The notes beneath the pieces were generated by a model. It was not told the DNA's origin. It saw only the letters and a program-made list of their open reading frames with translations, and ran no database searches. A program made the position numbers and the translations under genes. From Alphaproteobacteria bacterium (GTDB taxonomy: Bacteria; Pseudomonadota; Alphaproteobacteria; Rs-D84): a stretch of 33,646 bases of DNA. Every line of letters starts with the position of its first letter. Within the stretch, counting starts at the first letter, position 1. Of the stretch, positions 4,907 through 33,402 are shown piece by piece. The DNA is taken from NCBI GenBank assembly GCA_017629245.1, contig JAGBXO010000009.1, positions 102,256-135,901 of the forward strand. The letters are read 5' to 3'.

Positions 4907-5082
4907 GGTGCGTGGGGGTTCCGCGCTGGGCTTAAACACCTATGTAAGTCGCGTCGGGAATGACGTAAAACTCCAATTGCTGGTAGCAGTGGTTGGAGTG
5001 TGTGGAATATATTGAATAACACACGCTAGATCGATTTACCTAGTGTTTAAACTCCAACCACCATATTTTTGGTGGTATTTAA
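4907..5082 (+). ncRNA. Structured RNA element, copy 1 (candidate terminator/antiterminator switch)
   Basis: Visible helices: a 5' hairpin GCGTGG/CCGCGC (4910-4926); a long-range closing stem TTAAACAC/GTGTTTAA (4932-4939 with 5043-5050); a small hairpin CGTC/GACG (4952-4965); hairpin A:B ACTCCAA/TTGGAGT (4970-4976 with 4993-4999); and a terminator-like C:D hairpin ACCACCA/TGGTGGT (5057-5063 with 5070-5076). Strand B (4989-4999) is also perfectly complementary over 11 bases to strand C (5051-5061), so B:C excludes both A:B and C:D. A second copy at 33189-33402 shares the unpaired sequence blocks and has different, compensating helix sequences. It ends 27 bases before the lipoprotein gene with no other promoter visible between, so it is probably a cis-acting leader. 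An independent small RNA remains possible. Confidence 0.75.
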
Positions 5083-5109
5083 TTAAAAAAGAGAGAGGGG
5101 GATAAAGTC

Positions 5110-6444
5110 ATGAAAAAATTAGCGAGTTTATTAATGTTGCCATTGCTGTTGGCTGGGTGTGATTCAAAACCAGTGGTCGAGACGTATGTTTCTGCATGTT
5201 GTAGCATGGAAGAAAAGTATGGGCTTATGAAGTTGTCTGTCTGGGAAGACAAGATGGTTTTAAATGTTAAGGGCGAAGATGTTTTATTAAAGGACGGGAA
5301 TTTTGATGGAAAGCGCCAGCCTTCTGATATGTATTGGCTTGATATGACGGGGGTGATTCCAAGTACCCAGGAAAAGATTTCTGTTTCTATGCATTATGAT
5401 GTACAGAAAGGGCTTTTGGAGGTGAATAGTATTTCTGAGGGGGGTGTTGGTTACAGTATGAATACCTTTTATCCGATTAAATTAAAGGGGTATGTGGCAC
5501 CAAATGAAACGGAAAGTTGTGTGCAACAGATTCAAAATATTGTGATATTAGAAGGAGATAGCGATCTTTATGTTCAGCAAGAATGTCGTGTGTGGGCATC
5601 ACGTGAATCAAAAGCGTTGGGTGTGTCTGAACAGCCGTGTTATCCTTCTTATACCAAGATCCCGGTGCAGGATGCGATTTTAATTACGGAAAATTGGAAT
5701 CCAGAAATTTTTAAGAAATATTCGCTTTCAGATAATGATGCGGTATTGGACGAACATGAAAAAGATGCATGTGATGTGTTAAAGCGTTTAAAGGCATATA
5801 TTGCAGATAAAGGTTATGACAAGCCAAAGGAAAAATTTGCAGATGAAATTGGATGTGATACACCTGTTAAGGTAGTAGAGTTGGGCACAGATCAATTGTC
5901 TGATAATAATTATGAATATTTTGTTTTGAATATTTGTGAAAATGGTCGTCATACTGTGGCTAGGATAAACTGGGTTTATTCCTTTGACAGGGTAATGGAA
6001 AAAGAAGAGCTGTTGCCTGTTCGAGAGGTTGTACGTAATGGGCATACAGAGTATTCAACATATGATGTGGCACCGTACGATTGGTTTGCCGTCACACATT
6101 TTTCAGATACGGATGAATATGTTGTTCGTTTGAATGATGCGGAAAAGGTTGTACCATTAGAAAAATTGAATGGTTTTCAAAAACATAATTACTGTGCGCA
6201 TCAGATATATATGAAATCTCGTATCGCTGCGGATGGTGCAGTTGAGGTTAAGGATGGTAAAGAATATGTCACTTTGACGCAACAGCAGGCATTGGATATT
6301 TCCAAAAATTGGGATTATAATAATATGCGCTTGTATCATACGGGCGATCAACAGCACGAGAAAGATGCGTGCGATGTTCTGGAGCGTTTGGATTATTTTG
6401 TTAGAAATTTAGGCAAAGAAAGCCAGAAGGCAAAGAACGAATAA
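5110..6444 (+). CDS. Two-module lipoprotein, function unknown
   Basis: The 444-residue protein begins with a lipoprotein signal peptide and lipobox LLAGC, making Cys17 the lipidated residue. The next residue is Asp, which in enterobacteria favours inner-membrane retention. The mature part contains an internal duplication. HEKDACDVL occurs at 216-224 and again at 416-424, each preceded by an ITENW or ISKNW segment and by a Cys-containing stretch. Roughly residues 150-230 and 355-430 are therefore related modules. At least eight further cysteines fit a periplasmic or surface location with disulfides. The ATG follows a GAGAGGGGG purine tract. It lies directly downstream of structured RNA 1, which probably governs its transcription. 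I do not recognise the family. Confidence 0.85.
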   Translation: MKKLASLLMLPLLLAGCDSKPVVETYVSACCSMEEKYGLMKLSVWEDKMVLNVKGEDVLLKDGNFDGKRQPSDMYWLDMTGVIPSTQEKISVSMHYDVQKGLLEVNSISEGGVGYSMNTFYPIKLKGYVAPNETESCVQQIQNIVILEGDSDLYVQQECRVWASRESKALGVSEQPCYPSYTKIPVQDAILITENWNPEIFKKYSLSDNDAVLDEHEKDACDVLKRLKAYIADKGYDKPKEKFADEIGCDTPVKVVELGTDQLSDNNYEYFVLNICENGRHTVARINWVYSFDRVMEKEELLPVREVVRNGHTEYSTYDVAPYDWFAVTHFSDTDEYVVRLNDAEKVVPLEKLNGFQKHNYCAHQIYMKSRIAADGAVEVKDGKEYVTLTQQQALDISKNWDYNNMRLYHTGDQQHEKDACDVLERLDYFVRNLGKESQKAKNE

Positions 6445-6452
6445 AAAATAAT

Positions 6453-6477
6453 CCCGCCGATTGGCGGGTGTTTTTTT
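6453..6477. terminator. Bidirectional terminator between convergent genes
   Basis: The stem CCCGCC/GGCGGG (6453-6458 with 6463-6468) has T runs on the plus side (6471-6477) and an A-rich tract on the other side, serving the lipoprotein gene and the convergent minus-strand gene. The surrounding 31 bases (6445-6475) recur with one mismatch at 7096-7126. Confidence 0.85.
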
Positions 6478-7012
6478 ATTTCTGATTTTCTTTCAGACGA
6501 TAAATCATATTAAACAATTGTGCAGAATTATCTGTTGTTTTCAGTTTGCCAGAAATACGCATTTCAGCCATTTCTACGATGTTAAAGAATTTTTTTGACC
6601 GCCAACGCGTAATAAAACGATTCATGTCGCTTTGGCGTTTGTCCAGTGCACTGCCAACTTCACTTTTTGTTTGATAGGTTAATAGATTTGTTTCGAATTC
6701 TGTTGGTTTACAGTTTATGCTGTAAGTTGTCTTGGTGGATAACTTGATTTGGCCATAATGTTTTTTTGTGAATATTTTGTCTTCTCTGTAAATGCGACCG
6801 TCTGACATTGGGGATGCACTGGCACTTTGAAGTTTTTCTGGTGCTTTTTTTATAGCGTGAATTGTCAAGCTGTATGGTTGTTTACCTAATACGTTTGTTG
6901 TAAATATGTATGTTATTTCTGAATCCGTGTTTTTTGCGGTGACGGTTGTGTTTTGGTCTGTGATAAACGCGGTTGCAATATCATAGATGTTGTTAATTTC
7001 ATAATTTGCCAT
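6476..7012 (-). CDS. Hypothetical protein, 178 aa
   Basis: I do not recognise this protein. It is basic, Thr- and Lys-rich, with no signal peptide, and looks like a beta-strand-rich N-terminal half (ITYIFTTNVLGKQPYSLTIH) followed by a helical C-terminal half with RFITRWRSKKFFNIVEMAEM. AAAGGA lies about 12 bases before the ATG and a good promoter lies upstream. It is flanked by two nearly identical 31-base terminator segments, so it may have arrived as a small cassette. It is convergent with the lipoprotein gene and co-oriented with the ACP-like gene, but a terminator separates it from the latter. Confidence 0.7.
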   Translation of the reverse strand: MANYEINNIYDIATAFITDQNTTVTAKNTDSEITYIFTTNVLGKQPYSLTIHAIKKAPEKLQSASASPMSDGRIYREDKIFTKKHYGQIKLSTKTTYSINCKPTEFETNLLTYQTKSEVGSALDKRQSDMNRFITRWRSKKFFNIVEMAEMRISGKLKTTDNSAQLFNMIYRLKENQK

Positions 7013-7055
7013 TTCTTTTTGTCCTTTGGTTTTGTTTTTAATTACTTATACTTTA

Positions 7056-7083
7056 TATATAGTACGCAAATAAAATTTGTCAA
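7056..7083 (-). promoter_or_regulatory. Promoter for the 178-aa gene
   Basis: On the minus strand TTGACA (7083-7078) is followed after 16 bases by TATATA (7061-7056), about 45 bases before the ATG. Confidence 0.7.
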
Positions 7084-7095
7084 GCAGGCTGCGTG

Positions 7096-7126
7096 AAAAT
7101 AATCCCGCCGGTTGGCGGGTGTTTTT
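7096..7126 (-). terminator. Terminator and near-identical 31-base repeat
   Basis: The stem CCCGCC/GGCGGG (7104-7109 with 7114-7119) lies just beyond the end of the ACP-like gene. The 31 bases match 6445-6475 with one difference, so the 178-aa gene is bracketed by direct copies. Confidence 0.75.
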
Positions 7127-7138
7127 ATTTATTTTTTT

Positions 7139-7456
7139 TTAGCGGGTGCGGAATTTTGCCTGTTGGTTACGGGCGGGTACCAGTGTACGCAATTGCTGGT
7201 ATGATAATTTTAAATCCTGATTCAGATTTGCGCGTGATTGTGCCTGATATGCGCGCACCAGATCGCGAACTGTTTTTACATTGTCAAAATATTTTTCTTG
7301 GATTGGTGTATTTAGCATTTCTTGCAATTCTGATACGATATCCAGAATTGCCATTGGGCCCATATGTTCAAACAGGTTTGTGTTTTGTTTAATTTGTGAT
7401 GCAGGCATATAGCCTTTTTTTACGATTATGTTTTTTACAATTTCATATGTTGTCAT
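7139..7456 (-). CDS. ACP-like protein lacking the phosphopantetheine serine
   Basis: The 105-residue product aligns with acyl carrier proteins over its first 73 residues: MTTYEIVKNIIVKKG resembles the [16 protein letters not shown] start of the AcpP in this window, and the end of the domain (KTVRDLVRAYQAQ) matches helix IV. The attachment motif is replaced by HMGPMAILD (31-39), so no serine is available for 4'-phosphopantetheine. A basic, Gln-rich tail of about 30 residues extends past the ACP domain. A longer reading frame exists upstream, but the ATG at 7456 is preferred because ACAGGAAA precedes it and similarity begins there. It probably acts by binding partners rather than by carrying acyl groups; this is an inference. 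It lies about 4 kb from acpP. Confidence 0.72.
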   Translation of the reverse strand: MTTYEIVKNIIVKKGYMPASQIKQNTNLFEHMGPMAILDIVSELQEMLNTPIQEKYFDNVKTVRDLVRAYQAQSRANLNQDLKLSYQQLRTLVPARNQQAKFRTR

Positions 7457-7484
7457 ATTTTTTCCTGTGGTTTGTTGTATATAA

Positions 7485-7513
7485 AATATGCTGTATAAAA
7501 TTTTGTTTGTCAA
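7485..7513 (-). promoter_or_regulatory. Promoter for the ACP-like gene
   Basis: The minus strand has TTGACA (7513-7508), a 17-base spacer and CATATT (7490-7485), about 29 bases from the ATG. It is back-to-back with the mltG promoter. Confidence 0.6.
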
Positions 7514-7527
7514 TAGGGCTGTTTTTG

Positions 7528-7556
7528 TTGTTTGCAAATTATTTTTTATTTGTAAT
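7528..7556 (+). promoter_or_regulatory. Candidate mltG promoter, possibly leaderless
   Basis: TTGTTT (7528-7533), 17 bases, then TGTAAT (7551-7556). The expected start falls at about 7563, the A of the proposed mltG ATG, and no ribosome binding site is visible. Confidence 0.45.
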
Positions 7557-7562
7557 AATTTT

Positions 7563-8582
7563 ATGGTTATGCCCAGGATAAGAAAATTTTTTCCAACGCG
7601 TGTTTTAATTCAAATGATTGTGGCGCCGGTATTAATTATTGTGTGCGCAATCGTTTATATGTTTATGTTGCATTCAACGGTGCGTGCGCCGGTTGTATTT
7701 AATATTAATCGTGGGGATACTGTATCGGGGGTTGCGAATCGCTTGGTGCGGCAAAAGTTAATCGATTCGGACCAGGTGTTTAAAACATCTGTACGGCTGA
7801 TGGGTGGAAAAATCCAAAGTGGGCAATATGATATTCCAAATGGTGCCAGTGCATGGCGTATTGCAGATATGTTTGCAAATGGTCGGGTTGCATCAACAAC
7901 AATTGTTATTCCCGAAGGGTTGACTGTTCAGCAAATAAAAAAACTGTTGTTGCAATCTGCGACCTTAACGGGTGCGGTTGAATGCGCTGCGGGAAAATTG
8001 GATCCAGTGTGCAATTTAAAAGATGGTCAGGTTTTTCCAGATACATATACTGTGGCCCGTGGTACGCCCAGGTTAGCAGTTTTGGAATTGGCGCGAAAAA
8101 AAATGAAGGGGATTGAGGAGGCTTGGAATCGTACCAGTCGCAGATTGCCAAAACCTTTGAAATCGTGGAATGAGGTTATAACCCTGGCATCGATTGTTCA
8201 AAAAGAAACGCCGTTGGCGCGTGAAATGCCAATTGTGGCCAGTGTTTATCTGAACCGTTTGAACAAGGGGATGCGTTTGCAGGCCGATCCAACAGTGGTT
8301 TATGCACTGACAAATGGTTTGGGGGATATGCAGGGGGCGCCATTGTTGCGTGGACATTTGAAGATGGAAAGCCCATATAACACATATCGGAACAAGGGAC
8401 TGCCGCCGGCACCGATTGCCAATGTGGGGCAGGGGGCGATTCGTGCGGTTCTTAACCCGGCGGAAACAAATTTTTTGTTCTTTGTTGCGGATGGGCGTGG
8501 TGGACACAGGTTTTCGCGTGATTATGAAGAGCACAAGAAGAATCATGCGGATTGGCGAAAAATAAAAAACAAGACTCGTTAG
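7563..8582 (+). CDS. mltG: Endolytic peptidoglycan transglycosylase MltG (YceG family)
   Basis: MltG is an inner-membrane lytic transglycosylase that cuts nascent glycan strands and is thought to set their length. The protein has a short basic N-terminus, one membrane segment (about 13-36), a LysM-like region (FNINRGDTVSGVANRLV) and the catalytic YceG domain with ASIVQKET, VYLNRL, MRLQADPTVVYAL, YNTYRNKGLPP and the C-terminal FVADGRGGHRFSRDYEEH. In the first motif the more common ASIVEKET has Gln for the first Glu while the second Glu is kept. Starts further upstream would overlap the divergent ACP-like promoter; ATG 7563 or 7569 fits the promoter position. In alphaproteobacteria mltG normally follows fabF, and here accessory genes intervene. 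Confidence 0.95.
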   Translation: MVMPRIRKFFPTRVLIQMIVAPVLIIVCAIVYMFMLHSTVRAPVVFNINRGDTVSGVANRLVRQKLIDSDQVFKTSVRLMGGKIQSGQYDIPNGASAWRIADMFANGRVASTTIVIPEGLTVQQIKKLLLQSATLTGAVECAAGKLDPVCNLKDGQVFPDTYTVARGTPRLAVLELARKKMKGIEEAWNRTSRRLPKPLKSWNEVITLASIVQKETPLAREMPIVASVYLNRLNKGMRLQADPTVVYALTNGLGDMQGAPLLRGHLKMESPYNTYRNKGLPPAPIANVGQGAIRAVLNPAETNFLFFVADGRGGHRFSRDYEEHKKNHADWRKIKNKTR

Positions 8583-8676
8583 TGTCTTGATTGCTAGGTT
8601 ATGGGTTGGATTACGTTCCTGTTTATCTGTTTTTTTATATCGTTTAAAATTACCTTGCGAAAGAAAGGGGTTTGAT

Positions 8677-9429
8677 ATGAAAAAAATATCATGTTTTTTT
8701 ATTGGTGTGCTGGGGGTGACAATTGGTGGTGCGGATGCGGCGAATGTGATAAATGGTAATCCGTTGTATAATCCGGCTGCTGGGCGGTTTTATAATATTT
8801 TGCAACCTGTTGAATTTGATACTAAGTTCGAGCGTTTTGTTATGGCGGATGAATTGGGGTATGGTATTTCTGATGCGTTCGCAATTCATGTTGCGACCAG
8901 CGGTTCGTATGATTCATCAGATCACCCGGAATTTGGTAAATGGTCATGGAATGATTTAGAATTTGGCTTTGATTGGGATTTGTGGAACAAAGGTCAGCGT
9001 CATGCCGAGGTCTATGGTGATGTAAAGCAGGTGTATAACACCAAGGATAATTTGCAGACAGTCGCATATAATTGGACAGCGGGGGCGCGTGTTGGGCGCA
9101 TGACAGACAATTGGACGGTTGTTGGGATTGTTCAGGTTGACTATTTAAATGATGATTTGCCACAGGATACCTTTGATGCGTGGGCGATGACGGTTGGTAT
9201 GCAGGGGCAGTATATATTGAATCAAAATTGGAATGTTGTGGGGGAAATGCTGTTCGATTTTGATTTGTTTGATAAATACTATGATGGTGAACGGTTGCGG
9301 CTTGGTGTTGGGGTAAATTATAATATTGATGCGACCAAGTATATAGGCGTATATACATCTAAGGATGTTGTACATGGTTTTAACAAAGCCCCGATGAAGT
9401 TTGGGGTGGTTTTTGCGGCAGACTTTTGA
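8677..9429 (+). CDS. Outer-membrane beta-barrel-like protein
   Basis: The 250-residue protein starts with a Sec signal peptide ending around GGADA/ANVING. The mature part is rich in alternating aromatic and polar strands (FEFGFDWDLW-type segments, NWTAGARVG, NWNVVGEMLFDFDLF) and ends in a terminal phenylalanine (FAADF), the usual outer-membrane barrel signal. It may be a small porin or a structural barrel; no substrate can be inferred. ATG 8677 is chosen because GAAAGGGG lies seven bases upstream and the signal peptide begins there, although the frame is open back to 8587. It follows mltG by 94 bases and is closed by its own terminator. Confidence 0.82.
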   Translation: MKKISCFFIGVLGVTIGGADAANVINGNPLYNPAAGRFYNILQPVEFDTKFERFVMADELGYGISDAFAIHVATSGSYDSSDHPEFGKWSWNDLEFGFDWDLWNKGQRHAEVYGDVKQVYNTKDNLQTVAYNWTAGARVGRMTDNWTVVGIVQVDYLNDDLPQDTFDAWAMTVGMQGQYILNQNWNVVGEMLFDFDLFDKYYDGERLRLGVGVNYNIDATKYIGVYTSKDVVHGFNKAPMKFGVVFAADF

Positions 9430-9437
9430 ATAATATG

Positions 9438-9458
9438 CCCGCCAAATGGCGGGTTTTT
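9438..9458 (+). terminator. Intrinsic terminator
   Basis: CCCGCC-aaat-GGCGGG (9438-9453) followed by TTTTT. Confidence 0.88.
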
Positions 9459-9565
9459 AGGTTGGTTTGTACACGGTTTGATTTTGTCAATTTTGCAATT
9501 TCTCTAAAATCCTAAAAATACGCGTATTTCAAGCGTTTTTGTTGAGATTGTTTCCTAGATTTTTC

Positions 9566-9594
9566 TTGACAATTTGGGGGCGGGTGATTATAGT
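9566..9594 (+). promoter_or_regulatory. Main promoter of the ribosomal supercluster
   Basis: TTGACA (9566-9571), a 17-base spacer and TATAGT (9589-9594) make a near-consensus promoter. It is the only strong promoter seen ahead of rpsL and probably drives rpsL-rpsG-fusA-tuf and much of what follows. The 107 bases before it (9459-9565) hold no gene that I can see. Confidence 0.85.
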
Positions 9595-9600
9595 ATGTTC

Positions 9601-9746
9601 GCTTTCCGTGTAATTAAGGAGAGTAAGATACACAGGAAACCGCCTAAGAATTCAGGGTTATAATCCGGCACAAGTCGTTGAAATAAGTCTGATAAGGTGG
9701 CTTTTGTGCAGAGTAAAACAGGTAGAAAGAAACAAAGAGATTTTGA
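9601..9746 (+). promoter_or_regulatory. Structured rpsL leader
   Basis: The untranslated leader of about 145 bases has two crossing pairings: CCGCCT (9640-9645) with AGGTGG (9695-9700), and GCACAA (9668-9673) with TTGTGC (9704-9709). This would be a pseudoknot, or two alternative states. Leaders of str operons are common sites of ribosomal-protein feedback, but the regulator is not visible here. Confidence 0.45.
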
Positions 9747-10118
9747 ATGCCAACAGTAAACCAACTGATTCGGAAACCTCGTAAAAAAGTCGCGGTAAAA
9801 AGTACTGCGCCTGACATGATGGAAAACCCACAGAAACGTGGTGTTTGCACACGTGTTTATACGACAACACCGAAAAAACCTAATTCGGCGCAGCGTAAGG
9901 TTGCCCGTGTGAAACTGGCGAACGGCCGCGAAGTAACTGCTTATATTCCAGGTGAAGGTCATAACCTGCAGGAACATAGTGTTGTTATGATTCGTGGTGG
10001 TCGTGTAAAGGACTTGCCTGGTGTGAAGTATCATATTATCCGTGGTGTATTAGATACCAAGGGTGTTGATGCAAGAAAGCAGGGGCGTTCTTTGTATGGT
10101 GCCAAAACAAAGAAATAA
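9747..10118 (+). CDS. rpsL: 30S ribosomal protein S12
   Basis: S12 is a decoding-centre protein of the small subunit. The 123 residues are standard, including [11 protein letters not shown] with Lys43 and GRVKDLPGV with Lys88. Streptomycin-resistant mutants change these two lysines, and both are the sensitive form here. It is the first gene of the str block, transcribed from the 9566 promoter through a structured leader. The ribosome binding site is weak (AAAGAG), which may matter for control. Confidence 0.98.
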
Positions 10119-10195
10119 TTAAGTTAACCGCACGCATATAATGTGCGTGAGTAATCTGTTTAATAACAGGTGAAGTGACAAAAGGAAAAAATAAA

Positions 10196-10672
10196 ATGTC
10201 AAGACGTAAGGCTGCAACAAAACGTGAAATCTTGCCAGATTCCAAGTATAATAATCTGGTTGTTGCAAAATTTATTAATAATGTTATGTGGGATGGTAAA
10301 AAAGAAGTTGCCGAAAATATCGTATATGGCGCAATGGATAAGTTGAAAGCATTGGCCAAAGACGGTAAAAATGAATTGGATTTGTTTTTAGAGGCGATTG
10401 ATGCGTTGAAGCCATCTGTAGAAGTAAAAGGTCGCCGTGTTGGTGGTGCGACATATCAGGTTCCATGTGATGTTCGCGCTTCGCGTCAGCAGACATTGGC
10501 AATTCGTTGGGCGATTATGTTCGCGCGTAAACGTGGTGAACGTAATATGACGGATCGCGTATTTGCAGAATTGCGTGATGCCTTGAATGGTCAGGGTGGC
10601 GCGTTCAAAAAGAAATTGGATACACACAGAATGGCAGAAGCAAACAAGGCGTTTGCTCACTTCCGTTGGTAA
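10196..10672 (+). CDS. rpsG: 30S ribosomal protein S7
   Basis: S7 nucleates assembly of the 16S rRNA 3' domain and in enterobacteria also represses the str operon. The start [20 protein letters not shown] is the conserved S7 N-terminus, so ATG 10196 after AAAGGA is chosen over an in-frame ATG at 10175. The length of 158 residues is normal. The 77-base spacer after rpsL carries a hairpin CACGCA/TGCGTG (10131-10149). fusA follows after 27 bases. Confidence 0.97.
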
Positions 10673-10699
10673 TAAACACAAAGGCAAAGGAAAGATACA

Positions 10700-25871: not shown

Positions 25872-25896
25872 TAATCTGGTGGGGATAAAGTAAGAT

Positions 25897-26402: not shown

Positions 26403-26568
26403 AAATTAATCTAATGCGTGCATCTATGCGCGTTGGGCTTTGGTCATGTAGCGATTTGTACGCTCCCGTCGCCCAACACACATATCTGCAACATTATCTT
26501 AATTTTTCAAATAAGGTAGAGATTAACACCATAGTTAATTGAAGACATCGAAAAAAGGTTAAAATAAA
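26403..26568 (+). other. Structured spacer with four stem-loops, rpsM-rpsK
   Basis: CGTGCA/TGCGCG (26417-26422 with 26427-26432); GTTGGGC/GCCCAAC (26432-26438 with 26471-26477) enclosing AGCG/CGCT (26450-26453 with 26461-26464); TATCTTA/TAAGGTA (26495-26501 with 26512-26518); and ATTAAC/GTTAAT (26522-26527 with 26534-26539). No open frame or T run. rpsM and rpsK are usually only 15-30 bases apart, so this is long. Confidence 0.6.
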
Positions 26569-26952
26569 ATGGCAGTATCAAAAGCTAAGAAAAAAGTTGT
26601 TAAAAAAGTATCGCATGGCATTGCACATGTTGTTGCGACAAATAACAATACACGTATCACAATTACGGACCAGTCAGGTGCTGTGTTGACATGGGCAACC
26701 GCTGGGGCAAATAATTTTAAGGGCGCAAAAAAGTCCACACCATATGCCGCAACAATAGTTGCAGATGCAGTTGGTAAAAAAGTCGCCGAAATGGGTATGA
26801 AAACAGTTGATGTTTTGATGCGTGGTATTGGTCAGGGTCGTGAATCTGCTGTACGTGGATTGGCAAATGCTGGTCTGATTGTGCAGTCCATTACCGATAC
26901 TACACGTATTCCACACAATGGTTGTCGCCCAAAGAAAGTGCGTCGCGTGTAA
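26569..26952 (+). CDS. rpsK: 30S ribosomal protein S11
   Basis: S11 lies on the 30S platform near the mRNA exit. The 127 residues have the S11 core NNTRITITDQSGAVLTWATAG, KSTPYAATIVAD and the conserved C-terminal TRIPHNGCRPKKVRRV. The basic N-terminus is typical. AAAAGG lies about 12 bases before the ATG. A strong terminator follows, so the alpha block ends here transcriptionally and rpoA lies 1.3 kb further on. Confidence 0.98.
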   Translation: MAVSKAKKKVVKKVSHGIAHVVATNNNTRITITDQSGAVLTWATAGANNFKGAKKSTPYAATIVADAVGKKVAEMGMKTVDVLMRGIGQGRESAVRGLANAGLIVQSITDTTRIPHNGCRPKKVRRV

Positions 26953-26980
26953 TATGTGGTATACTAAGCATGAAATCAAG

Positions 26981-27005
26981 CCGGGGGCATGCCCCCGGTT
27001 TTTTT
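26981..27005 (+). terminator. Strong intrinsic terminator after rpsK
   Basis: CCGGGGG-CATG-CCCCCGG followed by seven T residues. It ends the ribosomal transcription unit. Confidence 0.92.
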
Positions 27006-27020
27006 ATTTTATAAAAGTTC

Positions 27021-27048
27021 TTGATATGTGTCGTGTGCTCATTATACA
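27021..27048 (+). promoter_or_regulatory. Promoter for the 208-aa gene
   Basis: TTGATA (27021-27026), 16 bases, TATACA (27043-27048). Confidence 0.6.
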
Positions 27049-27077
27049 CTGCGTGGTGGTAAAGGGGTTTGTTTTTT

Positions 27078-27704
27078 ATGCTAGGTAGTTTTTATCGCAC
27101 GCTGTTGGGGTATTTTGGATTTGGAAATTTGGAACATAAATTTGTCCCGGTAAATAGGCAAGCAAAAATACAAGAAAATAAGCCATATGTTCCGCCCTTA
27201 GTTGTTTTGGGTGAAAAATTGACAGATGAAAAAATGAAACAACTGTTTGGTGTGAATTATAGCGGTATAATGTATTATAACTATGATACTAAATCATGGT
27301 GTGCGGAAAGGTATTTAGGGTATTGTATGCCGTTTCAAGATAAAGTTGAAAAAGATGCATTTGTATTTAAACAGGTGTTAGAGGCCGAGCCTGATTTTAG
27401 GAATTTTGAATTGGTTGCTTTTGCAACAATGTTGATAAAGAATCGTTATTTCCCGGGAGTAGCAAATAAGATTGTTCGTCCTTTCTTTAATCAAAAAGGG
27501 AGTGCGGTTGTTGGGACAATTGTTGTTCGTGACATAAAGGATGGAAAAATTTTACCCTTGTCGTCTGATTGGGTTGGGGTTTATTTCCCAGAAATAGGTC
27601 ATTGTGATGCGATATGGTATGGACCAAAGTGGATGACGCAAAATGGTTTGGAAATGCCAGAGTTTAGACAAAGATTAATTCGAAATTATACAAAACAACG
27701 TTAG
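27078..27704 (+). CDS. Hypothetical protein, 208 aa, between rpsK and rpoA
   Basis: I do not recognise this gene. The N-terminus (MLGSFYRTLLGYFGFGNLEHKF) could form an amphipathic or re-entrant helix but is not a clear signal peptide. The rest is soluble and aromatic-rich, with pairs such as MYYNYDTKSWCAERYLGYC and IGHCDAIWYGPKWMT. ATG 27078 is chosen because AAAGGGG lies ten bases upstream; a TTG at 27069 would overlap that site. It has its own promoter and lies between a strong terminator and an exported small protein. In most alphaproteobacteria no gene separates rpsK and rpoA, so this looks like an insertion. Confidence 0.72.
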   Translation: MLGSFYRTLLGYFGFGNLEHKFVPVNRQAKIQENKPYVPPLVVLGEKLTDEKMKQLFGVNYSGIMYYNYDTKSWCAERYLGYCMPFQDKVEKDAFVFKQVLEAEPDFRNFELVAFATMLIKNRYFPGVANKIVRPFFNQKGSAVVGTIVVRDIKDGKILPLSSDWVGVYFPEIGHCDAIWYGPKWMTQNGLEMPEFRQRLIRNYTKQR

Positions 27705-27713
27705 TTTTTTTTG

Positions 27714-27741
27714 TGGACAAAAATCTGCCTTGTGTTATTAT
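27714..27741 (+). promoter_or_regulatory. Promoter for the 113-aa exported protein
   Basis: TGGACA (27714-27719), 16 bases, TATTAT (27736-27741) with an extended TGT. It lies 52 bases before the ATG. Confidence 0.55.
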
Positions 27742-27793
27742 GCGGTTTCGTAATGGGTGCGAGAGAATAAAAATTTAAATTAAGGGTTATGTT

Positions 27794-28135
27794 ATGAAAA
27801 GATTATTTTTCGCAGGTTTGATGTCTGTTTGCTTCCTTGGTGCAGCGTTGGCAAATTATACAATCACGGAAACGGATGTTCTTACAACATGGGAAAGTGT
27901 TGATGTTATTGTGGAACAGAATGTTCAGCCACGTCGTTTTTATTCAAGTCGTGATGTAGTACGTGCGAATTCGCGTCCATGTGCGCATAGCGCGGGTAAG
28001 CCAGTGCGTGTAAAGACTCATACAGAGCTTATTGATCATTATCAGGTTTATCAGCCTGTGACTGTTTATAAGCCAATGGGAACACAGATTCAACGTCGTG
28101 TTGTACCGGTCGAATCTTGTAATAAGTGTTTTTAA
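27794..28135 (+). CDS. Small exported protein, 113 aa
   Basis: I do not recognise the family. The protein begins with a clear Sec signal peptide (MKRLFFAGLMSVCFLGAALA, cleavage before NYT). The mature part of about 93 residues is polar, with repeated Val/Tyr/Gln strands (HYQVYQPVTVYKPMG) and three cysteines (one central, CNKC near the end), which may form disulfides in the periplasm. TAAGGG lies about seven bases before the ATG. It has its own promoter and precedes the rpoA promoter. Confidence 0.78.
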   Translation: MKRLFFAGLMSVCFLGAALANYTITETDVLTTWESVDVIVEQNVQPRRFYSSRDVVRANSRPCAHSAGKPVRVKTHTELIDHYQVYQPVTVYKPMGTQIQRRVVPVESCNKCF

Positions 28136-28140
28136 TTTTT

Positions 28141-28162
28141 AATCCCGCCAAACGGTGGGATT
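28141..28162 (+). terminator. Hairpin after the 113-aa gene (weak terminator)
   Basis: AATCCCGCC/GGTGGGATT is a 9-bp stem with one G-T pair. It is not followed by a T run, so termination is uncertain. Confidence 0.5.
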
Positions 28163-28168
28163 AAATGT

Positions 28169-28197
28169 TTGACTTTTGTTTTTTTTAAAGATAAAAT
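28169..28197 (+). promoter_or_regulatory. rpoA promoter
   Basis: TTGACT (28169-28174), 17 bases, TAAAAT (28192-28197). It shares TTTGACTTTTGT with the rpsM promoter. A GCACGCGTGC palindrome lies in the leader. Confidence 0.75.
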
Positions 28198-28268
28198 AAC
28201 GCACGCGTGCGGGAATCCGGATGCGGCCGTTTGGCGAAAATGATAAACTAAGCTAAAAGGAAATATAA

Positions 28269-29297
28269 ATGATTGAAAAAAATTGGATGACATTGATTAA
28301 GCCAAAAAAGTTGACAATCAATGTTGATGAACATAATCCTAATATTGCGACATTGGTTGCGGAACCATTGGAAAAAGGTTTCGGTTTGACATTGGGTACG
28401 GCTTTACGTCGTGTTTTGCTGTCTTCTTTGCAGGGATGTGCGCCAATCCATATTAAAATTGATGGTGTGCAGCATGAATTTTCCAGTATTTCGGGCGTGC
28501 GCGAAGATGTGACCGATATTATATTGAATTTAAAAGGTGTTTATTTCAAGGCATTAAGTGAAGGACAGCACAAGGCATATTTAAAAGTTAAAGGTCCAGC
28601 TGTTGTGACTGCGGGTATGATTGAAACATCTGGCAGTGTAGAAGTCATGAATAAAGATGTTGAAATTTGTACCTTGGACAAGGGCGCGAATCTGGATATG
28701 GAAATTACATTGGGTATGGGGCGTGGTTATGTGCCTGCATCTGCGCATGCGGATGGTTTGCCTTTGGGTGTTATTCCGGTTGATTCGATCTTTTCTCCAA
28801 TCTTGAATGTTGCGACTGAGGTTTTGCCAACACGTGTTGGGCAGTCAACAGACTTTGATAAATTGGAATTGACAGTTAAGACAAATGGTTCTGTTTCGCC
28901 AGAAGATGCTATTGCATTTGCTGCGCGTATTTTGACAGACCAGCTGGTTGTCTTTATTAACTTTGAAGATCCAGCTCAGCTGAGTGCGCCAAGTGAAGAA
29001 GAAAAAGTGAAAGATGCTTTGCCATTTGATCCAAAGTTATTAAAGCATGTTGATGAATTGGAATTGTCTGTTCGTGCAAATAATTGTTTGAAGAATGACA
29101 AAATCAACTGGTTGGGTGAATTGGTACAAAAAACAGAAGCAGACATGTTGAAAACACCAAACTTTGGTCGCAAGTCTTTGAACGAAATCAAGGTTCAATT
29201 AGAAGCAATGGGATTAGGTCTGGGTATGGAAGTGCCTGGTTGGCCACCAGAAAATATTGCTGAATTGGCAAAAAAGTATGAGGATCCATACAAATAA
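28269..29297 (+). CDS. rpoA: RNA polymerase subunit alpha
   Basis: The alpha subunit nucleates RNA polymerase assembly and its C-terminal domain binds UP elements and activators. The 342 residues contain the N-terminal dimerisation region ([25 protein letters not shown]) and the C-terminal domain with [24 protein letters not shown] and [14 protein letters not shown], in which RSxN-type contact residues are partly changed (VRANNCLK). AAAGGAAAT precedes the ATG. It has a separate promoter and is followed, after a long structured spacer, by rplQ. Confidence 0.98.
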
Positions 29298-29299
29298 TT

Positions 29300-29409
29300 A
29301 ATTAAATTCTGTGGGCTCTTGTTGTGTTTGTCGGTTTTTATGGTGGTTCGTTACATTTCACACTGTCATGCACTTTCAAGCGTCCAACAGAATTTAATTT
29401 CTTGCTTTT
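29300..29409 (+). other. 110-base long hairpin between rpoA and rplQ
   Basis: AATTAAATTCTGT (29300-29312) is perfectly complementary to ACAGAATTTAATT (29397-29409). Beyond one bulged A the stem goes on for nine more positions (29313-29321 with 29387-29395) with one mismatch and one G-T. This gives a stem of about 22 pairs over a 65-base loop with no open frame. It could be an RNase III site, a small RNA, or a palindromic repeat element. Confidence 0.65.
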
Positions 29410-29411
29410 TG

Positions 29412-29439
29412 CAGAAAATTATATAAAATTAAACGAATT
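29412..29439 (+). promoter_or_regulatory. Possible rplQ promoter
   Basis: TTGCTT (29412-29417), 16 bases, TAAAAT (29434-29439), directly after the long hairpin. Confidence 0.5.
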
Positions 29440-29492
29440 TAATCCCGCGGTGCTGGTTTTTATCAGGTCGTGGTAGTCTCAAAAAAAACAAT

Positions 29493-29513
29493 CCCGCCCA
29501 ATTGTGGGCAGGG
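29493..29513 (+). other. Stem-loop before rplQ
   Basis: CCC-GCCCA-attg-TGGGC-a-GGG: a GCCCA/TGGGC core (29496-29500 with 29505-29509) extended by CCC/GGG. It lies directly before the rplQ ribosome binding site. Confidence 0.6.
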
Positions 29514-29534
29514 CAGAAACCAAAGGAGTAATTG

Positions 29535-29975
29535 ATGAGACATATGAAAGCAGGTCGTACATTCAATCGCGACACAAATGCACGCAAGGCTTTGTTTATT
29601 GGCTTGGCGAAGAATTTGATTGAAAAAGAACAGATTAAAACAACTTTACCAAAGGCAAAAGATTTGCGCAGTGTAGTTGAAAAATTGATTACTCGTGCAA
29701 AGGTTGATACAGTTGCGAATCGTCGTTTGACGGCATCTGAATTGGGTAATTCGTCTGCGGCAACTGTTAAAAAGCTATTTGATGTTTTGGGCAAACGTTA
29801 TGCGAATCGTCCGGGTGGATATACACGCGTTTTAAAGGCTGGGTTCCGTTATGGTGATGCAGCACCAATGGCGATTATCGAATTGGTTGAACGTGATGTT
29901 AACGCAAAGAAGGTTGCACCGGTTACAGCTGTGGCTGAAGAAGTTGCAGAAGAAAAAGTAGCGGACGCAGAATAA
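29535..29975 (+). CDS. rplQ: 50S ribosomal protein L17
   Basis: L17 lies at the exit-tunnel side of the 50S subunit. The 146 residues start [21 protein letters not shown], a small variant of MRHRKSGRKLNR, and contain [29 protein letters not shown]. An Ala/Val/Glu tail of about 25 residues follows the core. ATG 29535 is chosen over an in-frame TTG at 29532 because AGGAG is then five bases upstream. It ends the ribosomal region, with a strong terminator. Confidence 0.97.
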
Positions 29976-29990
29976 ACATCGTAAAAACTA

Positions 29991-30015
29991 AATCCCCCGA
30001 ATGGGGGATTTTTTT
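29991..30015. terminator. Bidirectional terminator after rplQ
   Basis: AATCCCCC/GGGGGATT (29991-29998 with 30003-30010) followed by T residues; the convergent minus-strand gene ends five bases away. Confidence 0.9.
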
Positions 30016-30019
30016 ATAT

Positions 30020-31018
30020 CTATAATTCGTCGGGAGAAGTTATGATAATGATGCCGTTGCTTTTCCATTTTGCAGAATGTATATCAATGTCCATTATGTT
30101 TTGAGCGGCTAGATAAATCACAGGGGTTAGATTGTGTTTCGTTGCAAATTCTGTAATCGTTTTTTGCAGGGCAGGTCGTGTTTGGCCATTGGCAAACCAG
30201 TTTTCATTATCAATTACCCAAAAGTTGTTGTCACTGTGTGTTATGATTGCATGGGTTGATGTTGTGACGATTTCATCATGGATATTATGTTCTATATTTT
30301 TTTTCTTCAGGTATTTTATTAGGTCTGTGTTGTCATAATCGCTGTGTGTTTTTGTGGGGGTAGTATCGGTGTTCTCTTGGTCAAAATTAATATCGGTAAA
30401 TACGGGTACGTTGAATGATGTTGTGTCTTCCATGCCTGGTATGCTGTCTATTTCGATATCAAAATCGCTGGGCAGTGGTAATGTGTCGTTTGTATCTGGA
30501 ATGTTGTCAGTTGTGCCTGATGTGTCTTGTGGGGTATTGATTTGAATGAGACTTATATGATTGCGTGCGCGAATGAATGCCCCGTGAAGTTCGGGTGGTA
30601 ATTCGGGTGGCAATTCGGATGTTGTTTCAGCTTGTGATTCTTGGTCTGGGGTTGTTTTTTCTTCTGTGATCTTGTCTTTGTCCGGGGTGTCGCATTGTGT
30701 GGGTGCGGGTGATGTTGTTTTTGTTGGCCATTTTGGTAATGGTATTTTGGGAACAGGGATTGTGACCAATGGCTTTTTTGTGCGTATGATTAATGTGGTT
30801 GTTGCAATATACAGGGGTAAGGCAGACAGTATTAGTATGCCAAAAACAAATCCTGCAAAACCATGTAATTGCGCATGTGCCAATTTGTGCCACTGGGCGC
30901 CATTGAAAATATTGAACTTGAACATGAAATAAAGCACGGCCCATGTTATTGCCATATAGCAAACTGTCCATATAATGGCGTATTTGTGTTCAGTTAAGAT
31001 TTTAGATATCTTTTTCAT
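30020..31018 (-). CDS. Two-TM membrane protein with acidic linker and cytoplasmic domain
   Basis: The 332-residue protein has two membrane segments (about 13-33 and 54-78) close to the N-terminus. A Pro-rich stretch (TIPVPKIPLPKWP) comes next, then a long Thr/Glu/Asp/Pro linker with the repeat PPELPPEL. A folded C-terminal domain of about 95 residues begins at LIKYLKKKNIEHNIHDEIV. That domain has alternating strands and helices (FWVIDNENW, TPVIYLAAQNIMDID, GIIIITS), faintly like a nuclease-type fold, but I see no catalytic signature and make no assignment. A consensus promoter abuts the ATG, suggesting a leaderless mRNA. The family is not recognised. Confidence 0.75.
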   Translation of the reverse strand: MKKISKILTEHKYAIIWTVCYMAITWAVLYFMFKFNIFNGAQWHKLAHAQLHGFAGFVFGILILSALPLYIATTTLIIRTKKPLVTIPVPKIPLPKWPTKTTSPAPTQCDTPDKDKITEEKTTPDQESQAETTSELPPELPPELHGAFIRARNHISLIQINTPQDTSGTTDNIPDTNDTLPLPSDFDIEIDSIPGMEDTTSFNVPVFTDINFDQENTDTTPTKTHSDYDNTDLIKYLKKKNIEHNIHDEIVTTSTHAIITHSDNNFWVIDNENWFANGQTRPALQKTITEFATKHNLTPVIYLAAQNIMDIDIHSAKWKSNGIIIITSPDEL

Positions 31019-31027
31019 GTTGATTTT

Positions 31028-31055
31028 ATTATAGACAATAATATTGTTTTGTCAA
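31028..31055 (-). promoter_or_regulatory. Consensus promoter, predicted leaderless start
   Basis: On the minus strand TTGACA (31055-31050), a 16-base spacer and TATAAT (31033-31028) match the consensus exactly. The expected transcription start (about 31021) is only about three bases from the A of the ATG at 31018, leaving no room for a ribosome binding site. Confidence 0.75.
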
Positions 31056-31097
31056 ATATATAAAATGTAAAAAACTCTTTTTTTTGTGCGGTTTTTA

Positions 31098-31106
31098 TGG
31101 CATAAT
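31098..31106 (+). promoter_or_regulatory. Candidate promoter for the 660-aa protein
   Basis: TGG-CATAAT is an extended -10 (31098-31106), 26 bases before the ATG, with a T-rich but poor -35 region. Confidence 0.4.
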
Positions 31107-31131
31107 AGCAAAGATAATATAGGGGGGCTTT

Positions 31132-33114
31132 ATGTCTGTTTTTTTTAGGTTTTTTGGAACATCTGTTGCTTCTGTTTTTGCGTGTTTGGTTGCAATGAAT
31201 GCAAATGCTGCGACAGGGCGCGATGGTTATTCAAATGTTCGTTCTGCAAGTATGGGTGGGGCGGGTGTCGCGCGTATGCCAACCATGCCAACATTGCCTG
31301 TTATAACGGTTGGAAACATTTCGCAAAATGTTTCAACAAATGTGACGGTGCCCTCTGTTCCAGATGTGCCTGATGTTCCAGATGTGCCTGATGTTCCAGA
31401 TATTCCGGACGAGCCCGAAGTTCCAGAAGAACCATCAGTTGTTCCAGAATGTCAGGATGGTGGGGTAAAAAATTCACAATATACAATCGAAATGTGTATG
31501 AATGATGTTTTGCAATGTGTGAATTTTGGTGCGTTGCCAAATGGTTTGAACGATATGTTTGATGAAAATACACGCAATGCAATTGTTAATGGTATGGGGT
31601 TATGTACTCCCCAGGTGGATAAGTGTATTGCAACGGTTAGACGTGATTGCAGTAATATATATCGCGTGGCATCTGATGTTTGGATTGATTTTAATTCGCG
31701 TCGTGTTCAACCAGAATATTATAACTTTGTTTTGCGCAAAACGGGACTAACACCAAATCAGGCTGAAGCGGTTTGTGGTATGTTAGATAAAAATGTCTCG
31801 GGTTCATCATTTAATAAGAAAACTGCTTATGGATTTGGGGGCGCGTCGGGGCGTTTTGCACGTTGGGATGCTAAGAATGCAAAATGTCATGTTCGTGTTG
31901 CAGCATATAACAAGGATAAGCATATTACCAATACTTGGCTGTTTGGAGCCGCTGGTGATGATCAACCGGCCGAAGTATGGAAAGAAACAGGTGATACATT
32001 TACATGCAATAAAGACTTGTTTGGTTTTTCTTTGATGAACAATACACATACTGCAGCGGTTGTTGGTATTGGTGGTGGTACTTTGGTTGGCGCGGGTGTT
32101 GGTGCAATTGCAGGGCATGGCGCGCGTGACTTTGATTGTTCCCGCGATGAACATCGTGAAAAATTGGCCCAAGAGTTACGCAAATCTGGTCAGACAAGAA
32201 TTTTGAATCAGTTCTTGGAACCTAAATATCAATTGTCTTTGTCGGCAGATTTGACCATTGCCCAGTGTAATGCGGTTTTGGATTTATACGATAAATACCA
32301 GGAAATTATCGTTGCAATAGATGAATGTAATGGTTATACAATTTCTGAAGATGAAGTTGTAATAGAGGTAGAGGTATCTGATAATACGACACAAACAGTA
32401 GAGATTTCTGTTCGTGATGGAAAGCCTGTGTTGGATGATGCGCAAATTGCAAGAATTCAGCAACAATTGAATTGTGGTGATACGTGTCCGACTGATTTGG
32501 TTGCACAAATTCAGGCAGCGTTAGATTCCCAGGCGGGTGGAAAGTGTCGTTTTAAGCCGATAAACCTGGCCAAGATACATGGTGGCAGTATCTATTGTGA
32601 TGCGCAAACAGGCTGTTTATATCATGACGAGTTGGCGCGTGAAGTTCAGCCATTGGCCGATGTTTTGGATGGACTTGAAATTTTAAAAGGTGAAAAGTCT
32701 AATATGGCGAAAAGCATTGGTATCGGTGCAGCTGTTGGCGCAGGTGCAGGTGGCCTGGCAACAGCCATTACTGCATATGTCGAGAAAAATAATATCAATT
32801 GTCGTGTAGGTGATAATTTGGAGCAAGTGGCATTGGGTAAATCACATGTAATTGGCAGTTTGCGTGATTTCTATGTGAAATGGAATCTGAGTTTGCCAGA
32901 TGTTATCGCGCCAACTGCAACAATAGATAGTTGCGAATCGTGGAAATACAACTGTTCGCGCTATACAGATATGGCGCAGTGTGAAAATGCCCAGTTTAAT
33001 TACAAGCCTGTGGGTGCGCCAACATTTACATTAGTGCGTTCTGTTTGCAAGGCATCGGGTGGTATGTGTATAGAAAACTATCCGGTTGCCAAATCACAAG
33101 GTGCATGTAAATAA
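31132..33114 (+). CDS. Exported Cys-rich protein with VPD repeats and two glycine zippers
   Basis: The 660-residue protein carries a Sec signal peptide of 26 residues (cleavage near ANA/ATG). A Val-Pro-Asp low-complexity segment (74-100) follows, then two large modules. Each module has cysteine-rich parts and a glycine-zipper hydrophobic segment: 308-330 (AAVVGIGGGTLVGAGVGAIAG) and 528-550 (SIGIGAAVGAGAGGLATAI). Such zippers can insert into or associate with membranes. The many cysteines, often regularly spaced, suggest an oxidising compartment. The VPD segment looks like a rigid spacer through the cell wall. ATAGGGGGG precedes the ATG. I do not recognise a family or a function; it may be a surface or envelope protein. 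Confidence 0.82.
   Translation: MSVFFRFFGTSVASVFACLVAMNANAATGRDGYSNVRSASMGGAGVARMPTMPTLPVITVGNISQNVSTNVTVPSVPDVPDVPDVPDVPDIPDEPEVPEEPSVVPECQDGGVKNSQYTIEMCMNDVLQCVNFGALPNGLNDMFDENTRNAIVNGMGLCTPQVDKCIATVRRDCSNIYRVASDVWIDFNSRRVQPEYYNFVLRKTGLTPNQAEAVCGMLDKNVSGSSFNKKTAYGFGGASGRFARWDAKNAKCHVRVAAYNKDKHITNTWLFGAAGDDQPAEVWKETGDTFTCNKDLFGFSLMNNTHTAAVVGIGGGTLVGAGVGAIAGHGARDFDCSRDEHREKLAQELRKSGQTRILNQFLEPKYQLSLSADLTIAQCNAVLDLYDKYQEIIVAIDECNGYTISEDEVVIEVEVSDNTTQTVEISVRDGKPVLDDAQIARIQQQLNCGDTCPTDLVAQIQAALDSQAGGKCRFKPINLAKIHGGSIYCDAQTGCLYHDELAREVQPLADVLDGLEILKGEKSNMAKSIGIGAAVGAGAGGLATAITAYVEKNNINCRVGDNLEQVALGKSHVIGSLRDFYVKWNLSLPDVIAPTATIDSCESWKYNCSRYTDMAQCENAQFNYKPVGAPTFTLVRSVCKASGGMCIENYPVAKSQGACK
31357..31401 (+). 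repeat. 18-bp tandem repeat encoding Val-Pro-Asp
   Basis: GTTCCAGATGTGCCTGAT occurs twice in a row (31357-31374, 31375-31392) and half a unit follows. It encodes VPDVPD units and could change in copy number by slippage. Confidence 0.85.
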
Positions 33115-33116
33115 AA

Positions 33117-33142
33117 AAATCCCCCAATCGGGGGATTTTTTT
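33117..33142 (+). terminator. Intrinsic terminator after the 660-aa gene
   Basis: AAATCCCCC/GGGGGATTT (33117-33125 with 33130-33138) around AATC, ending in T residues. Confidence 0.9.
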
Positions 33143-33152
33143 ATCAAAGCAA

Positions 33153-33182
33153 TTGACATTTGTTTCAAAAATCTGTTAAAAT
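33153..33182 (+). promoter_or_regulatory. Promoter for structured RNA 2
   Basis: TTGACA (33153-33158), 18 bases, TAAAAT (33177-33182). The expected start near 33189 is the 5' edge of the RNA element. Confidence 0.75.
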
Positions 33183-33188
33183 ATTCAT

Positions 33189-33402
33189 GTCGTGATGTGT
33201 TGTCACGATGGGGTGTAGTGACCTCTGCCATAGCGTCGGAATACATACTTGTGGCGCATATTATGCGCTGTTTTTATTATAGGACGACGAAAAACTCCTG
33301 ATCCCGGGTCAGGAGGGTTGCGAATATAATGAATAAGCACACAATTCTATGGATTGTCACTAACCTCCTGACCACTTTGAATTTAATTCTGGTGGTTTTT
33401 TT
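33189..33402 (+). ncRNA. Structured RNA element, copy 2 (candidate terminator/antiterminator switch)
   Basis: Helices: a 5' hairpin TCGTGA/TCACGA (33190-33195 with 33203-33208); a long-range stem TAGTGAC/GTCACTA (33216-33222 with 33356-33362); CGTCG/CGACG (33234-33238 with 33285-33289) enclosing GCGCAT/ATGCGC (33254-33259 with 33263-33268); hairpin A:B CTCCTGA/TCAGGAG (33295-33301 with 33309-33315); ACAATTC/GGATTGT (33341-33357); and a terminator-like ACCAC/GTGGT (33371-33375 with 33392-33396) with seven T residues. Strand B (33307-33316) can instead pair perfectly over 10 bases with strand C (33364-33373). Helix order and the unpaired blocks match copy 1, while helix sequences differ and compensate. 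It precedes an exported-protein gene. Confidence 0.75.

Follow-up and report, generated by a model that had tools for sequence, protein, structure and literature searches.

Leader RNAs resembling the phage P1 c4 locus, often found upstream of exported-protein genes in Candidatus Enterousia and related bacteria

A stretch of 33,646 nucleotides (nt) from an alphaproteobacterium of the lineage Rs-D84 (contig JAGBXO010000009.1 of assembly GCA_017629245.1, positions 102,256 to 135,901), called the window here, contains two copies of a structured leader RNA, each followed by a gene for an exported-looking protein. Judged from sequence and predicted pairing, these RNAs have the anatomy of the c4 locus of phage P1, element by element. 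In the annotation of phage P1, the target sites a1 and b1 lie upstream of the C4 RNA, and the sites a2 and b2 lie downstream at the start of icd; Rfam places its families c4-a1b1 and C4 at this locus. The window element is probably, at roughly 60%, a C4-type self-silencing antisense/target attenuator, in which locus-specific keys would cause premature termination of the gene behind it. An earlier note on the window had described two RNA copies at 4907-5082 and 33189-33402. Both were found, at about 4906-5080 (copy 1) and about 33188-33402 (copy 2), and the shared blocks and helices that it listed are present in each. What the note called the closing stem would be the pairing of a1 with a', and its alternative helix B:C would be the closing stem of C4. 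A further helix that it did not name, nested in its closing stem (GTAAGTCG/CGATTTAC in copy 1, CCATAG/CTATGG in copy 2), would be b1 paired with b'. The folding energy of copy 2 is 4.2 standard deviations lower than that of shuffled sequence. The parts of the two copies are as follows.

4910-4926, + strand: copy 1, 5' hairpin P1 (GCGTGG/CCGCGC), corresponding to the hairpin at the 5' end of the phage P1 c4-a1b1 region
4928-4942, + strand: copy 1, S1 hairpin (GGG../CCTA) with target a1 in its loop, partly by eye
4932-4939, + strand: copy 1, target a1, TTAAACAC, pairs with a' at 5043-5050 (the closing stem of the earlier note)
4944-4951, + strand: copy 1, target b1, GTAAGTCG, pairs with b' at 5032-5039 (CGATTTAC)
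4952-4965, + strand: copy 1, P4 hairpin, CGTCGGGAATGACG
4970-4999, + strand: copy 1, A:B hairpin (A 4970-4978, B 4991-4999)
5000-5024, + strand: copy 1, P6 hairpin with the conserved loop GAATATATTGAATAA (5005-5019)
5026-5043, + strand: copy 1, S2 hairpin CTAG/CTAG with b' (5032-5039) in its loop
5043-5050, + strand: copy 1, a', GTGTTTAA
5051-5059, + strand: copy 1, strand C, partner of B (C4-type closing stem), followed by ACCA
5057-5080, + strand: copy 1, intrinsic terminator (stem 5057-5076), overlapping the end of C
33153-33182, + strand: copy 2, promoter-like TTGACA-18-TAAAAT
33189-33209, + strand: copy 2, 5' hairpin P1
33210-33225, + strand: copy 2, S1 hairpin, a1 being TAGTGAC at 33216-33222
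33228-33233, + strand: copy 2, b1, CCATAG
33234-33286, + strand: copy 2, P4 region, including a second terminator-like hairpin with a U-run (33251-33278)
33295-33315, + strand: copy 2, A:B hairpin
33319-33339, + strand: copy 2, P6 with loop GAATATAATGAATAA
33341-33357, + strand: copy 2, S2 hairpin, b' being CTATGG at 33347-33352
33356-33362, + strand: copy 2, a', GTCACTA
33364-33373, + strand: copy 2, strand C, CCTCCTGACC
33370-33402, + strand: copy 2, intrinsic terminator

From sequence, fold and Rfam alignment, the phage P1 locus begins with a 5' hairpin and continues with a second hairpin whose loop holds a1, then b1, a hairpin with a U-run, one strand of the closing stem, a short hairpin, a hairpin whose loop presents b', a', the other strand of the closing stem, and ACC. 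The window RNAs share with C4 and c4-a1b1 of phages P1 and P7 (RF01695 and RF03163, clan CL00128) the 5' hairpin, the a1 loop, b1 and the P4 hairpin, and also strand B, P6, the S2 hairpin that presents b' in its loop, a' abutting strand C, and the motif RCC behind C. In the window copies a1 and b1 are complementary to a' and b' in the C4 order a1-b1 ... b'-a', and the closing stem surrounds two hairpins, one of them presenting b' in its loop, with a' beside the 3' strand. A similar parser run on phage P1 recovered the annotated a1 exactly and b1 with an offset of one base. The differences from the P1/P7 systems lie elsewhere. The window branch is without a2/b2 at the start codon and has an intrinsic terminator; its P6 loop is GAAUAUAUUGAAUAA, where phage P1 C4 has a short hairpin; it mostly precedes exported-protein genes, whereas the phage P1 locus precedes icd-ant; it reaches up to 49 copies per genome; and it has no Rfam match. 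The Enterousia branch thus seems to have swapped the second target a2/b2 for an intrinsic terminator.

The extent of the family was traced from the source genome outward. A search of that genome with the loop pattern gave six exact matches and three with a single mismatch. Two of the exact matches are the window copies; the other four, together with one of the mismatched ones, are further copies, making seven in total, and the covariance model R1 was built from these seven. With R1 at E<=0.01 the source genome has 10 places, of which eight are clear, one is shortened (56 bits) and one is weak (25 bits). Full counts at the same threshold reach 49 in genome G065 (968 kb) and 24 in genome G082 of the same genus. 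Within the genus Candidatus Enterousia, 56 of 59 genomes have matches (E<=0.1). In the order Rs-D84, 171 of 190 genomes and 19 of 22 genera do (E<=0.01), and in the class 11 of 289 genomes, of which eight lie beyond Rs-D84, each with one to four matches listed; the best 51, 15 or 10 candidates per genome were scored in the genus, order and class surveys, respectively, so that copy counts from them are lower bounds. The covariance search that the earlier note had proposed yielded further homologues across genus and order. Enterousia sits in the order Rs-D84, and its genomes measure about 0.75 to 1.02 Mb in the set of one study (PMC12306168). In G065 some RNAs stand in tandem arrays of two or three (C2:100-888, C2:97086-98123, C1:482148-482555 and C1:544733-545150).

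The a and b key helices were parsed in 165 of 168 copies. Before the counts below, the three unparsed copies and five judged by eye to be misparsed were dropped, leaving 160, and one more without B:C pairing was set aside for some of them. A parser score of at least 26 was reached by all 160 kept copies and by 17 of 168 shuffled sequences, and a score of at least 30 by 151 and 5, respectively. The claim of covarying helices was borne out on alignment A6, which holds 24 of the 27 eligible copies, the three without a P4 insert being left out. All of its 624 cells are paired, 15 of 26 pairs have changed on both sides, and the covariation value is 0.588 against 0.160 for shuffled and at most 0.091 for slid alignments. 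Pairing of a and b in A6 is partly by construction, because the copies were selected by the parser for these helices; the P1 hairpin, which was not among the selection criteria, still covaries. The A:B helix is almost invariant in A6, and thus its covariation is outside what this alignment tests.

The mutually exclusive pairings A:B and B:C, together with a terminator, were also supported beyond the window. B:C pairing was found in 159 of 160 copies, and an intrinsic terminator in 148 of 160 as against 16 of 168 shuffled tails. Strand C had been described as the 5' arm of the terminator; the overlap exists, but it is mostly short. In 143 of the 148 copies the terminator's 5' arm and B:C share 1-6 nt, in 111 of them 4-5 nt, and in five there is no overlap. 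At the sequence level the element has both features of an attenuator, a terminator ahead of the gene and a mutually exclusive alternative helix. When seven copies were folded without pseudoknots, the fold containing both keys was the minimum-free-energy fold or within 1 kcal/mol of it, and forcing B:C cost 7-18 kcal/mol. A promoter of its own had been ascribed to each window copy. This holds for copy 2, whose TTGACA-18-TAAAAT scores 11/12, but no promoter was found for copy 1 by the rule of the tool used; a promoter-like site of at least 9/12 is present in 57% of 159 copies and in 9% of shuffles. An extra terminator-like hairpin in P4 occurs in 31 of 159 copies, four of them in the source genome, where about one would be expected from shuffles, and it is found in 12 of the 16 copies with a long P4 region versus 19 of the 143 others.

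In the mechanism that we propose, the leader would present its targets, a1 in the loop of the S1 hairpin and then b1, to a downstream C4-like domain made of strand B, the P6 hairpin, the S2 hairpin (whose loop carries b'), a' and strand C. With a' and b' on a1 and b1, strand A would keep B, the terminator behind C would form, and the gene would be off. With B on C, the C4 domain would close in the manner of a tRNA acceptor stem, this would occupy the terminator's foot, and read-through would follow. The locked, terminated state is presumably the default, and B:C the state of read-through. The a' and b' of one transcript may further act in trans on transcripts of the same locus, as reported for P1 and P7, and RNase P may trim the 5' end of B; processing by RNase P has been reported for C4 of P1/P7 (PMC5320573). 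Two known systems indicate that such loci can work via termination and read-through. The CI RNA of phage P4 brings about premature termination via upstream and downstream targets, and the leader IsrK/STnc1160 of the Salmonella prophage Gifsy-1 contains complementary segments and occurs both as a short RNA that ends at a terminator and as a longer read-through mRNA (PMC4825925). In these respects they resemble the window element; the genes concerned are different, and IsrK is reported to activate translation of its long form (PMC4825925). The Rfam model isrK scores 35.1 bits, against a gathering score of 50, on the a1b1-P4 region of phage P1 (L233:4231-4312), and the isrK family may thus represent the target half of such a locus.

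Two exclusive pairing states followed by a terminator are also what a riboswitch would have, and the earlier note had preferred a switch sensing an unknown ligand. In such a scheme the conserved unpaired bases (GAAUAUAUUGAAUAA, GCGUCGG, UAAAA) would form the pocket for a metabolite or second messenger, the helices would be scaffold, and the ligand would fix A:B and the terminator. The strong conservation of the P6 loop and the presence of up to 49 copies, often upstream of exported-protein genes, fit this, and some second-messenger regulons are likewise multi-copy before exported-protein genes. However, the covarying helices correspond one by one to the antisense/target pairs of phage P1, the key helices change fast while staying paired, and phage relatives of the element precede antirepressor genes, one of them (L159) with a2/b2-like words at the start codon. 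No requirement for a ligand is known for C4. For these reasons the structured leader, the promoter-like sites, the terminator and the exported genes of the earlier interpretation stand, but the ligand switch is not the best reading of them and we regard it as unlikely. Of the readings in the earlier note, its alternative of a cis/trans small RNA family comes closest. A known riboswitch class was ruled out by the lack of an Rfam match.

The keys differ from copy to copy. Distinct combinations of a and b number 46 of 47, 22 of 22 and 7 of 7 in three genomes, and both keys pair with the targets of another copy in 0.46%, 0.22% and 0% of ordered pairs; self-pairing is built in by the parser, and only these cross-pairing counts are informative. 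Two further loci of the source genome, L003 and L004, have RNAs nearly identical to copy 2, yet the sequences of their closing stem and inner helix differ from it. Between close paralogs in G065, identity is 0.58 and 0.55 for b1 and b' and 0.71 and 0.73 for a1 and a', whereas the S2 stem (0.99), strand C (0.97), the P1 hairpin (0.79) and the remaining sequence (0.86) are more conserved. Nine key pairs are common to copies in different genomes, among them TAGTAAC/TTTACGAG in four genomes. We infer trans specificity of the keys, leaning on the precedent of phage P1.

Kinship with C4 also emerged from another family. The RNA sRNA-Xcc1 (RF02221), which belongs to no Rfam clan, was found at E<=1e-4 in 40 of 200 Pseudomonadota genomes, whereas 14 controls gave no match. 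Its 87 nt correspond to the part of the window element from B through P6, S2 and a' to C, and upstream of 20 sRNA-Xcc1 loci (L213-L232) an S1 hairpin, a b1 strand and a P4 hairpin were seen by eye in most. The parser was applied to phage P1 and 18 of these 20 loci (L218 and L226 left out), and 17 of the 18 were parsed as a1/b1 architecture; L230 was not parsed, and poor parses such as L215 were kept. Own keys match the downstream region better than foreign keys in these 17 loci and phage P1 taken together (0.78 versus 0.44 for a', 0.67 versus 0.28 for b'), and thus the sRNA-Xcc1 loci, as a set, have a2/b2 at the start codon, unlike the window branch. On this sequence evidence, sRNA-Xcc1 as described covers no more than the 3' half of a C4-type locus that has target sites both upstream and downstream, and a correction of the Rfam family to a larger element is suggested. 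The genes behind these loci include members of the SymE, Rha, KilA-N, P22_AR and Bro-N families, and sRNA-Xcc1 has been tied to integron cassettes with symE (PMC12444791). Its P6 internal loop, GAAUAYA/GAAUAA, resembles the long form of P6 in the window family. Two loci bridge the families: L193 scores 37.8 bits with R1 and 51.7 bits with RF02221, the latter match spanning strand B through the end of strand C, and L228 scores 59.5 bits with RF02221 and weakly, 21.6 bits, with R1. Among 17 distant copies scanned against Rfam, L193 fell just short of the RF02221 threshold of 53 bits, and two others had weak matches. In all, four distant members of the R1 family score 27.5-51.7 bits on RF02221 (L204 33.8, L197 28.7 and L187 27.5 besides L193), whereas the window copies do not reach that model. 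The families c4 and c4-a1b1 were listed in a survey of 2010 (PMC2864571), and sRNA-Xcc1 and C4 antisense appear as separate annotations in the one paper found to name both (PMC12189769). A literature search, to which closed-journal papers were not open, found C4 antisense, Alphaproteobacteria and RNA motif joined nowhere.

Several observations weigh against the attenuator reading or its C4 kinship. The window had no Rfam match at gathering score, and at E<=10 there was nothing near copy 1 and three chance-level matches near copy 2; RF01695, RF03163 and RF02221 stayed unmatched by the window copies even at this limit. RF01695 was found in 3 of 289 Alphaproteobacteria, none of them from the order Rs-D84, and the source genome is without a match. 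Conversely, R1 finds neither the phage P1 c4 locus nor 19 of the 20 sRNA-Xcc1 loci at E<=5, and it has no match in four RF01695 loci at E<=0.1. Kinship with C4 thus rests on element order, complementarity and the bridges L193 and L228. The absence of a strong match to a known class agrees with the earlier note, and "apparently undescribed" holds for the Enterousia branch at the level of Rfam models, but not for the kind of element. At the ribosome-binding site, own keys of the 160 copies match downstream no better than foreign keys (a' 0.78 versus 0.73, b' 0.56 versus 0.56), and without a2/b2 the translational block of phage P1 cannot apply in the Enterousia branch. The hint of RNase P is not independent: RCC stands behind C in 110 of 151 copies and RC in 136 of 151 (8 of 159 copies without GG in B left out), and RCC also lies within the terminator stem. 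As for the keys, key identity is below non-key identity in all 62 close paralog pairs, with the b keys as the least conserved segment, but the pairs were chosen by non-key identity, which favours low key identity. In all 276 unselected pairs of A6, the identity of b1 (0.54) is only a little below that of the P5 loop (0.58), the P1 hairpin stem (0.58) and the P4 interior (0.60). Stems of the P1 hairpin are diverse too, 38 distinct of 44 in G065, so that privacy of the keys alone is no proof of trans specificity. This diversity is near that of b in G065 and lower in G082 and the source genome; cross-pairing of the apical 6 nt of the P1 hairpin, compared with b, is 4.6% versus 3.7% in G065 and 11.4% versus 1.1% in G082.

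The genes behind the RNAs bear on another alternative. A Shine-Dalgarno (SD) sequence with an open reading frame (ORF) of at least 60 amino acids (aa) lies within 200 nt in 111 of 168 copies, and in the remaining 57 there is no such SD-ORF or the sequence ends too near. Its distance behind C has quartiles of 47, 50 and 52 nt. The statement that each copy precedes an exported-protein gene is often true in the wider family: of 88 downstream proteins with 100 aa or more, 76 appear exported under a crude rule of our own, against 45 of 117 background ORFs. Among 108 distinct downstream proteins, Pfam (E<=0.01) matched 43 families; those listed include small HTH proteins (10 with HTH_31), outer-membrane barrels (four with OMP_b-brl), surface antigens, porins, glycosyltransferases and one Bro-N. 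Five of ten downstream proteins scanned singly had no Pfam match, the product of the gene behind copy 1 included. The two genes of the window are these.

5110-6444, + strand: gene behind copy 1, a 444-aa lipoprotein-like exported protein (by eye), without a Pfam match
33507-33646, + strand: gene behind copy 2, first part of an exported protein (by eye), truncated where the contig ends

The gene start behind copy 2 resembles those behind L003 and L004. With L006, these two loci of the source genome carry a repeated exported-protein family with the RNA upstream, and two of the three lie at contig ends, where the assembly breaks.

If the element were a family of trans-acting small RNAs (sRNAs), the terminated RNA of about 180 nt or its processed 3' part would regulate distant mRNAs, and the nearby gene would be expressed by leak-through. 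Consistent with such a role, sRNA-Xcc1 was detected as an RNA of 88 nt (PMC2996969), promoter-like sites and terminators are present in many copies, and multi-copy, chromosomal C4-like sRNAs with variable a' loops (Group 1) are reported from Acinetobacter baumannii (PMC5320573); these are described there as antisense RNAs, and the portion of PMC5320573 consulted mentions no linkage to a terminator and gene. However, SD-ORFs within 200 nt were found on the same strand in 108 of 157 copies, compared with 22 of 157 upstream on the opposite strand, and their spacing is narrow, 85 of 111 lying at 40-60 nt. Cross-pairing, tested solely against the other copies' own targets, is rare. Regulation of this kind is quite unlikely in our estimation.

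The P6 loop (GAAUAUAUUGAAUAA), strongly conserved across aligned copies, might instead be read by an RNA-binding protein that chooses between A:B and B:C, in which case the keys would be drifting stems. The motif recurs, by eye, in the distant alphaproteobacterial copies L186, L187, L190, L197 and L204, flipped, as a two-strand internal loop (for example AAAATAA-stem-GAATAT), and stems of the P1 hairpin drift as well. However, it is missing from phage P1 C4, which has a short hairpin in its place, and a protein-read attenuator appears very unlikely. A conserved leader peptide starting in the P6 loop was ruled out by eye, as frames vary between copies, and integron attC sites were likewise ruled out by eye, as the paired sequences are unconserved.

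Relatives of the C4-type attenuator that we favour occur on viral sequences. Of the 18 viral stretches that contain the loop pattern, R1 matches 11 at E<=0.1, and five of these score above 36 bits (L160 and L165, which are identical, L163, L158 and L159); it gives one weak match (L048, E 0.048) among 11 stretches with non-Alphaproteobacterial titles. L159 lies upstream of a gene for a Rha protein, at whose start the a2- and b2-like words were seen by eye. The weaker matches L153 (24.7 bits) and L166 (20.8 bits) lie upstream of genes for an AntA and a Bro-N protein, respectively. On the IMG/VR contigs L160 and L163, the RNA and its gene adjoin phage tail genes, like cargo on a prophage. A prophage in the window itself was ruled out: the core genes LepA, EF-Tu, SecY and RpoA are present, and a search of PHROGs with ten window proteins gave elongation factors and small unnamed matches only. 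A phage-integrase-like gene is located at 2008-3018, near copy 1, in surroundings of otherwise core genes.

These comparisons would unite C4/c4-a1b1, sRNA-Xcc1 and a so far unlisted branch from Alphaproteobacteria in a single kind of antisense-target module; this branch has expanded to as many as 49 copies in a genome of about 1 Mb, often before exported-protein genes. It is possible, although doubtful, that a phage immunity device has been turned into a genome-wide address system, in which dozens of secreted and surface loci of Enterousia are each silenced by a private antisense terminator with a two-part key. If so, the genes would be switched on singly, and incoming loci bearing an existing key would be silenced on entry. 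If the keys act in trans, they would amount to a large, naturally occurring collection of orthogonal RNA regulators, through which these uncultured gut bacteria may control their surface genes one by one.

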